Assembly (NCBI GenBank): GCA_945900945.1
Contig: CAMDKL010000004.1
Span: forward strand, 1-64,000
Source of the DNA: Pirellula staleyi DSM 6068
GTDB taxonomy: Bacteria > Planctomycetota > Planctomycetia > Pirellulales > Pirellulaceae
DNA length: 64,000 bases
Reading direction: 5' to 3'
Part shown: positions 31,680-34,312 of the stretch, one piece after another
Position numbering within the stretch: the stretch's first letter is position 1
Layout: the number at the start of each line of letters is the position of its first letter
Program-made: the position numbers and the translations under genes
The notes under the pieces: generated by a model
Told to the model about the DNA's origin: nothing
Database searches by the model: none
The model's input: the letters and a program-made list of their open reading frames with translations, nothing else

Positions 31680-33119
31680 TTAAACCGTTTGAGCCACGCG
31701 CATGGGAACCACCTGGTATGCTCTCGACCGGAAAAGAAAATCAATCAAGTTCCCTTCGTGTGGCTGCAACCAATTCAAGCGACTCGTTGGCATCGGACCG
31801 ATATTCAATCGGTCAATATGTGTCGCATTGGTTAGGTCGTCGATCCATGCTGCGTCTGCAGTTAGAGCAGTGCCAACCAGGGTTGGACCAATAGACTTGA
31901 TCATGTCTTTTTGGCTGCATTGAACTACCGAAACGAACGGGAACATATATTCCTTCATTGCAACAGCGCGTTGCGGCGAGTCGGCGGTGACGACCATGGG
32001 TCGCAAATACGCAGCTCTTTCGCGTTCGACTAGCCGTTCGCCATACGAGGCAGTCATGTCGATAACGCCGGACTCGGCAATATCCTGCTGAACCATAGCG
32101 TATGTCCCTTTTGCCATTAGAGGATTGGTGAACGCCGCGAGCGCCGCTTTGGGATTATTCGGCGGCAGAATCTCGGTTGCTCCTATTTTTGCAGCAAGCG
32201 CCTCACCAATCGCTTTGGTATGGCGTGAGGCCCAAATGCCCGAACAATTGATGCAGCTACGACCTGAATTGCTCAACACGCTTTCGACCATCATGTCGAG
32301 ATAGTCTTCCCATTGATCAACAACATCGTCACCGATGAGAATCTTGGAAAATCCTGGACCATGTGCTTGTACCTTTGAGTTGCCTGAATACTGTTCGACG
32401 GTTTGGGCGCTGCCGAAAATCATGCTTCGAGAACATTTGTTCAAAATGGTGGAACCAACATCGTGGCCGCCTGGATATAGACAAAAGGCTTCTGCCGGAA
32501 TGCCTGCCTCAATAAAAGCGCTGATCATGCGGTAGGGTGTCCAAGGTTCTTGCGAACCAGGCTTGAGAACCAACCCAACTTGGAGCGGAACGGCAGGAAG
32601 CCACAGGGTGTGAACGCCAGGTGAGTTGTTAGGAAGCACCGCACCTAGTACAGGCGTCTGGCATTGAAAACTCACTGTCACGTTGCGCCCCTCTTCGCCA
32701 TAGCCTCGAGAGAAAATCTCGAGATCGAGACCACGAGTCAATGAATCTAGAATGGTGTCGATATTGCTCAGGACGAAACAATTTTTCTGCATGTTGTTTC
32801 GACACATGTGCTCGGGTAGCCCCGTGCTTGCCGATTGCTGATGGATAAAATCGTCAACCGATTGATGTCCGTCGCCGAGCGGCAGTGTCTCATGTTCGAA
32901 CATGTGTGCAGCTTTCTTGCACCGTGAAATCAAATCGGCTGTAGGAATCGACCTGAGTGCTTTCCTTGCATTGGAAGCCTTCCGCATGTCCATTTCGACC
33001 ATGCCACCATTGACTTGGCCAATTTTCGCGATGGGCTCGCCTGTGTCAAAGTGAAAGACTTCTTGAAAATCAAGCGACTTGTATTGCTTGCCCCAGCGAA
33101 TCGGATTGATGGTCAACAC
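31680..33119 (-). CDS. Aldehyde dehydrogenase-superfamily protein, reductase-type
   Basis: This 479-residue protein has the ALDH fold. It includes the cofactor-region segment LPNNSPGVHTLWLPA (residues 162-176), EAGIPAEAFCLYPGG, FGSAQTVEQY and the nucleophile region SNSGRSCINCSG, with Cys289 or Cys292 as the catalytic thiol. The strand that normally carries the general-base Glu (ELGGK) reads HGPGFSK (residues 253-259), so this Glu is missing. Loss of it is typical of acylating or reducing ALDHs, which do not hydrolyse the thioester. Together with the adenylating enzyme encoded 62 bp upstream it could reduce a carboxylic acid to an aldehyde, as GriC/GriD do in grixazone biosynthesis. The pairing and motifs are seen; the reaction is inferred. 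Confidence 0.83.
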   Translation of the reverse strand: MLTINPIRWGKQYKSLDFQEVFHFDTGEPIAKIGQVNGGMVEMDMRKASNARKALRSIPTADLISRCKKAAHMFEHETLPLGDGHQSVDDFIHQQSASTGLPEHMCRNNMQKNCFVLSNIDTILDSLTRGLDLEIFSRGYGEEGRNVTVSFQCQTPVLGAVLPNNSPGVHTLWLPAVPLQVGLVLKPGSQEPWTPYRMISAFIEAGIPAEAFCLYPGGHDVGSTILNKCSRSMIFGSAQTVEQYSGNSKVQAHGPGFSKILIGDDVVDQWEDYLDMMVESVLSNSGRSCINCSGIWASRHTKAIGEALAAKIGATEILPPNNPKAALAAFTNPLMAKGTYAMVQQDIAESGVIDMTASYGERLVERERAAYLRPMVVTADSPQRAVAMKEYMFPFVSVVQCSQKDMIKSIGPTLVGTALTADAAWIDDLTNATHIDRLNIGPMPTSRLNWLQPHEGNLIDFLFRSRAYQVVPMRVAQTV

Positions 33120-33181
33120 TGCAGATTAAACTCCCTAAAAACGGTTGGATACTATATTCGCCTAGGAAGGCGGGTTGATAA

Positions 33182-34312
33182 CTAGTAAACGCCCACAGTC
33201 GTCGAGGACGCAAAGGCTCGATACGGTCTTACACCACTTACTCCATCCCAAGGATATTTCTTGTAGGGCATCTCGCGTTCCCCCTCGTCTCGTTCGAGGA
33301 ACCCAGGTACAAAAAATTCTTTGGTCATCGTATATAGTTTAACACGCCCTGTTTCGCCGTATCCAACCACCTTGGTGTGGTCTTCGAAATCGACAACTTC
33401 AACGACGGCTCGCGGCTGCGGAGCATAGTAAGCAATCGTGTACCCGTCATCAATTGTCACAGGTCTTGAACAAGCTAACCCCATGAGTGTGTTGCCATAG
33501 GTGGGGGTCATATAAACGCCGCTTTCCTCGGCTGGGCCACCGAGTAGTTCTTCAACGCAGAAGCGGGTCCATTGCGGTGTGAACTCGGTCCCACCTGAGA
33601 AAATCCCTGTAATCCCGATTTCCTGAATACTCGTGTCTTTCTCAGCAAGTCCAACTGCGAGCGACTCGAGCAACTTTGGGGTCGTGAACATGCATTTGAT
33701 ATCGTGGTTCGCGGTCAAAACGGTGATCGCTTGGTCGATGCAGTGCCGTTTGTATTCTTCCAGATGCTCCATCCAACCCTTTTTAATCAGTTTGACTACC
33801 CAGCGAGGATCCAAATCGATGCAAAAACATATTCCACCTCGATATTGACAAAGGTGCTCAATGGCCAACCGAAGTCGCCGTGGACCCGATGGGCCGAGCA
33901 TCAGCCAGTTGGATCCTTTTGGGAAATACTCATCGGGCAGCGTATGACTAAATAGCTCGTAATCGATTTTGAAATCATCGATCACCATTCGACTTTTCGG
34001 TATCCCGGTTGTTCCACCTGTTTCAAATACGTAAGCTGGCTTTCCGAGCAAACCCTTGGGAATCCATCGGTTAATCGGGCCGCCTCGAAGCCATTCGTCT
34101 TCAAACTCTGGGAACTTCTTCAAATCATCGAACACCTTGACATCTTTCAGCGGATCGAACTTGAACTCCGCTTTTTTAGCAAGCCAAAACGGGGAACCGG
34201 TCGAGTCGTGAAAGTGCCACTGCACGGTTTCAAACGTTTGTTGGTCAAGGGCTTGTTTTGCATTAGTGGTTTGCTCATTGGTGGCCAACCAAGCAGGTGT
34301 TGAAACGGTCAT
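33182..34312 (-). CDS. Adenylate-forming enzyme, PaaK-like, without C-terminal domain
   Basis: The product (376 residues) carries the AMP-binding P-loop motif ETGGTTGIPKSR (residues 97-108), the later ATP motifs (FSGGTEFTP, MTPTYGNTLMG) and the GYGETGRVKLYT core motif at 317-328. These relate it to phenylacetate-CoA ligase (PaaK) and its relatives. After the hinge region (LERDEGERE, residue ~339) only about 30 residues remain, so the mobile C-terminal subdomain with the usual catalytic lysine is essentially missing. CoA-ligase activity may therefore be lost, leaving adenylation and transfer of the acyl group to the neighbouring ALDH. It is the upstream gene of the pair, and an alpha/beta hydrolase gene lies 180 bp further upstream on the same strand. 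The substrate is unknown; aromatic or long-chain acids are plausible. Confidence 0.8.
   Translation of the reverse strand: MTVSTPAWLATNEQTTNAKQALDQQTFETVQWHFHDSTGSPFWLAKKAEFKFDPLKDVKVFDDLKKFPEFEDEWLRGGPINRWIPKGLLGKPAYVFETGGTTGIPKSRMVIDDFKIDYELFSHTLPDEYFPKGSNWLMLGPSGPRRLRLAIEHLCQYRGGICFCIDLDPRWVVKLIKKGWMEHLEEYKRHCIDQAITVLTANHDIKCMFTTPKLLESLAVGLAEKDTSIQEIGITGIFSGGTEFTPQWTRFCVEELLGGPAEESGVYMTPTYGNTLMGLACSRPVTIDDGYTIAYYAPQPRAVVEVVDFEDHTKVVGYGETGRVKLYTMTKEFFVPGFLERDEGEREMPYKKYPWDGVSGVRPYRAFASSTTVGVY

Follow-up and report, generated by a model that had tools for sequence, protein, structure and literature searches.

The stretch of DNA considered here, referred to as the window, comprises 64,000 nucleotides of the planctomycete Pirellula staleyi DSM 6068 (assembly GCA_945900945.1, contig CAMDKL010000004.1, positions 1 to 64,000). 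On its reverse strand lie the genes for a small adenylating enzyme, called the adenylase below, and for a protein resembling the aldehyde dehydrogenases (ALDHs), with 62 bp between them. A hydrolase gene lies upstream on the same strand.

33182..34312, minus strand: EhpF-type atypical ANL adenylase, 376 amino acids (aa), without the mobile C-terminal domain; ATG start; assigned by phmmer and an AlphaFold2 model.
31680..33119, minus strand: EhpG-type ALDH-like protein, 479 aa, a putative acyl-adenylate reductase; GTG start; assigned by Pfam Aldedh, alignment, motif survey and plasmid search.
34494..35354, minus strand: alpha/beta hydrolase, upstream of the pair and a possible operon member; Pfam Hydrolase_4/Abhydrolase_1, with an upstream homologue in some relatives.

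A preliminary description of the window had given these positions for the two frames of the pair, and they are right. It had also proposed that the products act as a two-component carboxylic acid reductase, a reading that homology supports. We consider it probable that the pair is such a reductase, of the EhpF/EhpG type.

The adenylase is related to EhpF in sequence and in fold. A phmmer search against the PDB finds EhpF (3l2k/3hgu) with E 1.2e-39 over residues 29-366, nearly the whole of the chain, and the next molecule has an E-value of only 0.12. With an AlphaFold2 model built from 12 sequences (mean pLDDT 84), the top Foldseek matches are the EhpF entries 3hgv, 3hgu and 3l2k (best E 7.9e-30), and VIA-align superposes the model on EhpF with Z 29.9 and a root-mean-square deviation of 3.8 over 330 aligned residues. 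PaaK-type and other acyl-coenzyme A (CoA) ligases lie below EhpF in the same comparison (Z at most 25.5), the neighbouring folds including those of PaaK (phenylacetate), NatL2 (salicylate) and ClxA (3-amino-4-hydroxybenzoate). These searches, like the plasmid search described below, place the window proteins nearest to EhpF/EhpG, a pair of the reductase type, and not to CoA ligases. The earlier statement that all AMP-binding motifs are present went too far: the Pfam AMP-binding profile covers only residues 197-323 and scores below its cut-off (E 0.0005, 19.4 vs 29.9 bits). Evident in the alignment are ETGGTTGIPK (A3-like), YGNTLMG (A5-like) and, late in the chain, ERD.

The shortness of the adenylase tail, also described previously, is confirmed. 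The chain ends 34 residues past the ERD motif, and the end residue is identical in 118 of the 119 type-A planctomycete copies that reach the C-terminus (locus copies, so that some genomes enter twice), which argues that the absence of the C-terminal domain is an old family trait and no frameshift. A concealed domain was sought; the chain ends before it, and there is no Pfam match in the adenylase to AMP-binding_C_2, the C-terminal domain of PaaK, the phenylacetate-CoA ligase whose fold is among the nearest after EhpF. In a tree of 21 adenylases, the ten planctomycete type-A sequences form one clade (100/99), separate both from the EhpF-like plasmid sequences and from a second adenylase type. 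Within the order, adenylase identity is 71-94%, except for G049 (58%), and there is one full copy or one main match per genome, except in G060 (two); both features fit vertical inheritance of a core gene.

The ALDH-like partner matches Pfam Aldedh with E 8.4e-21. Its motifs are as first reported: HGPGFSK starts at residue 253, at the canonical ELGGK site of the alignment, so that His253 replaces the general-base Glu, and Cys289, which closes SNSGRSC, is kept. A Glu displaced to a neighbouring position was looked for, and there is none beside the ELGGK site in the alignment. Among 114 planctomycete locus copies (some genomes counted twice), His occupies the Glu site in 114/114, the Cys is present in 113/113 scored, Lys186 in 113/114 and Glu390 in 110/110. 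When ten ALDHs (six planctomycete, four plasmid) are aligned, the canonical Glu is absent from all ten, and all ten have Cys289 and Glu390; at the ELGGK site stands GPGxSK or a sequence close to it, two of the four plasmid sequences being one residue off and one planctomycete sequence having GTG. The window ALDH thus shares the marks of the EhpG type, namely a retained Cys, no ELGGK Glu and GPGxSK or a close form. As the EhpG-type ALDHs likewise do not have this Glu, its absence from the window protein is a family trait common to such partners. Three further ALDH matches in the same genome (25-26% identity) were set aside as ordinary ALDHs, ELGGK being kept in both of those whose alignment covers the site. 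The ALDH gene of G020:C80 is in two overlapping pieces, and that of G010:C19 has one internal stop, through either sequencing error or decay.

How constantly the two genes occur together was examined in 117 genomes, that of the window and 116 others from the same genus, family and order, with ALDH presence scored at E≤1e-80. The adenylase is found in 106 and the ALDH in 106; 103 have both, on the same contig in 98 and on different contigs in five. In every one of the 98 same-contig pairs the ALDH gene lies 3-925 bp downstream of the adenylase gene, in the same orientation; a small open reading frame (ORF) was called between the two in one locus looked at (L060). Both genes are absent from eight genomes, the adenylase alone is missing from three and the ALDH alone from three (Fisher 3.7e-8 by genome). 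The pair is a core trait of the order. In a genome collection, the best 80 loci, ranked by likeness to the window, were taken. Of the 73 with room for it, 70 have the ALDH downstream; in L122, L183 and L184 there is none within 2.5 kb. The 80 loci bear planctomycete titles save for one Gammaproteobacteria metagenome-assembled contig (L124); its adenylase is of planctomycete type and 80% identical, and the label is probably a binning error. A draw of 294 genomes from the phylum gave an adenylase match in 81 (60 at E≤1e-100, 21 weaker), and some members of the phylum therefore do without the gene. A fusion of adenylase and ALDH had been suggested by open frames of 900-1438 aa. This was rejected: the ALDH is a separate frame in L035-L038 and L042, and the type B loci L039-L041 show no ALDH match.

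Outside the order, 22 adenylase-bearing genomes were chosen by hand (16 of family f21 and six others), and the ALDH coordinates were compared by eye with those of the adenylase. Both genes are retained in 22/22, seven of them with the genes apart, and so adenylase and ALDH are kept jointly even where the pair is broken up.

Relatives of the pair also occur on plasmids. Among 72,556 plasmids, the ALDH query finds 18 records at E≤1e-12 and the adenylase query 28, about 10 of which have no ALDH match at E≤1e-12. Sixteen of the 18 ALDH accessions are found among the 20 adenylase records listed, and the other two (Streptantibioticus) match by genus count only. In four of the five plasmid regions opened, the adenylase is followed directly by the ALDH: Pantoea agglomerans (phz operon, in the EhpF/EhpG position), Streptomyces goshikiensis, Burkholderia ubonensis and Halalkalicoccus jeotgali. 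In the fifth, from Streptomyces sp. Mut1, a polyketide synthase and not an ALDH follows. Some of the plasmid adenylases are annotated 'arylcarboxylate reductase'. On a haloarchaeal plasmid (L105, 4508-8566) a symporter, an EhpF-like protein and an ALDH stand in a row, which is the order of distant planctomycete clusters, and the Escherichia coli plasmid NZ_CP076707.1 carries EhpF-like (annotated phenazine antibiotic biosynthesis protein) and EhpG-like genes at ~10.0-12.4 kb.

The closest known system is EhpF/EhpG of P. agglomerans, which belongs to D-alanylgriseoluteic acid biosynthesis: directly after a short ANL adenylase of ~360 aa comes an ALDH that has GPGRSK and keeps the Cys. The identities to the window proteins are 31% for the adenylase and 25% for the ALDH, and where the window ALDH has Lys186, Pantoea EhpG has Arg. 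Moreover, EhpF/EhpG sit in a plasmid phenazine operon, whereas the planctomycete pair clusters with genes for a chorismate-lyase-fold protein, an iron alcohol dehydrogenase and radical S-adenosylmethionine (SAM) proteins. LuxC/LuxE are alike in that the adenylating and the ALDH-like reductase proteins are separate. The LuxC profile gives three EhpG-type ALDHs faint scores that do not reach its cut-off; for the window pair itself, Pfam LuxC (ALDH) and LuxE (adenylase) give no match at E≤1, a search in which the HMMER filters drop weak matches. The single-chain carboxylic acid reductases share the ATP- and NADPH-dependent reduction of an acid, and domain searches find in the window pair neither their carrier domain nor their thioester-reductase domain of the short-chain dehydrogenase/reductase (SDR) type. 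The likeness to GriC/GriD of Streptomyces griseus (grixazone) is one of described chemistry: they convert an aryl acid to acyl-AMP and then reduce it (PMC10179220). The nearest sequence stand-in for them is the S. goshikiensis plasmid pair, to whose ALDH the window protein is 26% identical.

From homology, anatomy, pairing and core distribution we infer the following chemistry. The small adenylase would convert an aromatic acid and ATP to the acyl-AMP, and the ALDH-like partner would take the acyl group onto Cys289 and then, using NAD(P)H, reduce it to the aldehyde. Without the general-base Glu, a return to the acid by hydrolysis would be disfavoured. There are several points against this reading. 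The preliminary description had named conserved separation of the genes in relatives as contrary evidence; there is none in the order, and outside it the picture is mixed, with 15/22 adjacent and 7/22 apart: ~4.8 kb with genes between in G310, megabases in G140 and G221 (closed), and different contigs in G203, G252, G308 and G329. Three of 32 type-A loci (window included) have no nearby ALDH: L051, whose genome has one elsewhere, and L064 (G263) and L066 (G248), which are second adenylase copies. A 2-hydroxyisobutyryl-CoA ligase, acting on a non-aromatic acid, is also among the folds next to EhpF. Finally, the activity ascribed here to EhpF/EhpG themselves is as reported in the title of a paper.

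In many relatives the pair heads a gene cluster, for example in G076 (L058, L081), G051 (L087), G056 (L086), G068 (L090) and G108 (L092). After it come an iron alcohol dehydrogenase, in all but L087 a BamB/PQQ-like propeller, and a HemN/HutW-like radical SAM protein; further genes encode a GcvH-like protein (L086 has none called), a 4Fe-4S protein (ferredoxin), a squalene-cyclase-like protein, a DUF116-polyprenyl synthetase fusion (at 5725-7572 in L081) and the chorismate-lyase-fold protein, of 180-190 aa. A SPASM-type radical SAM protein is present in four of these five clusters, a geranylgeranyl-reductase/halogenase-like flavoprotein in three and a sodium:solute symporter in three; some clusters also contain a 4HBT thioesterase and a PaaK-type CoA ligase. 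Genes in these loci were called by codon-usage score, and part of the unlabelled cluster ORFs were scanned with Pfam. Among the proteins listed, DxDD is found in 11/11 cyclase-like proteins, DDIEDxD in 11/11 polyprenyl synthetases and the lipoyl-lysine motif ESxKA in 6/6 GcvH-like proteins. Distant members of the phylum (L047, L052, L053) have in common the symporter, the pair, the iron alcohol dehydrogenase, propellers, radical SAM protein, lyase-fold protein and flavoprotein, the families having been checked on L052, L054 and L058.

Of the 57 genome-collection loci with room, 31 have an iron alcohol dehydrogenase downstream, 29 a propeller, 22 a radical SAM protein, 18 a GcvH-like protein and 10 a 4Fe-4S protein. 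Within the order, adenylase and HemN-like protein are found together in 99/117 genomes (same contig in 51, within 15 kb in 41), and the lyase-fold protein in 104/117. Both adenylase and HemN-like protein are absent from six genomes (Fisher 1.9e-4 by genome), a value that overstates the evidence because family f17 is one event: in its three genomes (G087, G103, G112; 98-99% complete) the adenylase, ALDH, HemN-like radical SAM and lyase-fold genes are all absent at the cut-offs used. Polyprenyl synthetase homologues, paralogues included, occur in 94/117 genomes at E≤1e-60. Linkage was counted in 77 of these, leaving aside three fragments (G096, G103, G106) and 14 genomes with 36-39% matches, which were excluded as paralogues by our own judgement; of the 71 genomes scored with adenylase and polyprenyl synthetase, 19 have them on the same contig and 11 within 30 kb.

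The substrate is approached through the lyase-fold protein, which in several relatives belongs to the same cluster as the pair. Its model (pLDDT 86) matches AF1396 (2nwi, DUF98) with E 5.5e-8 and the chorismate lyase UbiC with ~1e-4, and Arg87 and Glu185, which we take to be the equivalents of the catalytic pair of UbiC, are invariant in 13/13 sequences. NCBIfam gives no match for it at the cut-offs used. The phenazine acid of EhpF is aromatic. The acid of GriC/GriD is 3-amino-4-hydroxybenzoate, of the hydroxybenzoate class (PMC10179220). More weakly, we infer that the acid is chorismate-derived (4-)hydroxybenzoate, because the lyase-fold protein co-occurs and clusters with the pair and is absent jointly in f17. 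The lyase-fold protein would then make (4-)hydroxybenzoate from chorismate, and the iron alcohol dehydrogenase of the cluster might reduce the aldehyde to a benzyl alcohol.

It is possible, and we suggest it tentatively, that the pair thus provides one step of an undescribed pathway, nearly universal in the Pirellulales and related planctomycetes, to a hydroxybenzoate-derived lipid or cofactor. The route would run from chorismate through hydroxybenzoate (lyase-fold protein) and aldehyde (the pair) to the alcohol (iron alcohol dehydrogenase), with later steps by one or two radical SAM proteins, the ferredoxin and the GcvH-like protein; the product would be joined with, or modified by, a terpenoid (polyprenyl synthetase, DxDD class II cyclase-like protein, geranylgeranyl-reductase-like flavoprotein). 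Methyl-plastoquinone was weighed as a model for such a pathway (PMC12324825).

A number of observations count against this proposal. The window's genome has the cluster split over contigs: contig 4 carries the pair, contig 1 (L079) a group of the HemN-like, GcvH-like and ferredoxin genes, contig 38 (L098) a group of the cyclase-like, polyprenyl synthetase and lyase-fold genes, and contig 46 a likely orthologue of the iron alcohol dehydrogenase (52%). Because of this, the functional link of the pair to the other cluster genes is drawn from the relatives. The lyase assignment is weak in sequence (PF01947 0.0051; PF04345 0.3 in one of five proteins, the other four matchless; 2nwi at 0.034 in a profile search of PDB sequences), and many UTRA ligand-binding domains, which have the fold in common with it, also match the model. 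Another acid could be supplied by the symporter or the hydrolase. In G014 the radical SAM and lyase-fold genes are present and those for adenylase and ALDH absent. Of the 94 genomes with polyprenyl synthetase homologues, 14 contain nothing closer than paralogues of 36-39% identity; 11 of the 14 belong to the window's genus (36-38%), and the f17 genome G087, without the pair, keeps cyclase-like and polyprenyl-synthetase genes side by side at 42-43% (L100); the link of the terpenoid branch to the pair therefore does not hold in all genomes. In six pair-bearing genomes (G000, which is the window's own, G006, G051, G056, G068 and G076) a search for UbiA matches up to 250 kb from the cluster genes found none, and for this reason a plain prenylated 4-hydroxybenzoate product is disfavoured. 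Only two genes of the UbiA family are present in the window's genome, on contigs 54 and 68.

Alternatively, the acid that the pair reduces might be non-aromatic, a fatty or terpenoid one related to the cyclase-like protein and polyprenyl synthetase found in the cluster. The DxDD motif of the cyclase-like proteins and the frequency and linkage of polyprenyl synthetases given above would suit a terpenoid acid, and LuxC/LuxE are a fatty-acid analogue. We think this rather unlikely: the nearest relatives with known or annotated roles (EhpF, the 'arylcarboxylate reductase' records) take aryl acids, PaaK, NatL2 and ClxA are aromatic-acid enzymes, albeit with one aliphatic-acid ligase beside them, and of the 11 genomes of the window's genus with only a polyprenyl synthetase paralogue, 10 retain the adenylase and 10 the lyase-fold gene. 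Another possibility is that the adenylase first hands the acyl group to a thiol, either CoA or the lipoyl-type arm of the GcvH-like protein, and that the ALDH reduces the thioester. The GcvH-like protein with its lipoyl-lysine motif in the clusters of several relatives speaks for it, as do the thioesterase and CoA ligase of some clusters, and ALDHs without the Glu include thioester-forming ones; however, the adenylase has no C-terminal domain, which ANL enzymes use for the thioester half-reaction, and in genomes that have the pair at another place, the window's among them, the GcvH-like gene still sits beside the radical SAM and ferredoxin genes, so that we consider this route unlikely. That there is no reductase at all, the adenylate serving some other transfer and the ALDH-like protein acting on an unrelated aldehyde or being inactive, would accord with the missing Glu and with the separations outside the order, but is made very improbable by the 98/98 close pairs within it, the conserved Cys289 and Glu390, the joint presence and absence of the genes and their joint retention where apart.

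As to the neighbouring hydrolase, the same-strand gene is real, but the role of acid supplier once suggested for it is weakly supported, a homologue occurring within 4 kb in 10 of 62 genome-collection loci with room (same-strand in seven of the 10). L106, the closest locus in the hydrolase comparison, has no alpha/beta hydrolase homologue at the threshold used. The second EhpF-like adenylase clade (~27-38% identical) is found at L048, L049, L039-L041, L043, L067, L071 and L072, none of which has an ALDH. Its neighbours include a class III aminotransferase, an MMPL/HpnN-like exporter and U32 peptidase-like proteins, and a thioester-reductase-type SDR protein is near the adenylase in seven of nine; these loci possibly encode a split reductase leading to an amine.

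To our knowledge, two-component acid reductases of this type are known from a few antibiotic pathways. The kind of enzyme is thus already known, and what is new is the core status of the pair and its cluster setting. Literature searches, judged by titles and abstract openings, found no paper on this pair in planctomycetes or on its product; the pathway seems, and probably is, undescribed. That most sampled genomes of the order keep the pair, and often with the same genes around it, implies that its product is conserved. If the proposal is true, these bacteria would use for a housekeeping molecule a chemistry that has been known until now from antibiotics. For biocatalysis, the pair would represent a large natural family of enzymes that may reduce acids without a carrier; it also belongs to a compact gene set whose deletion in a cultivable planctomycete could reveal the product.

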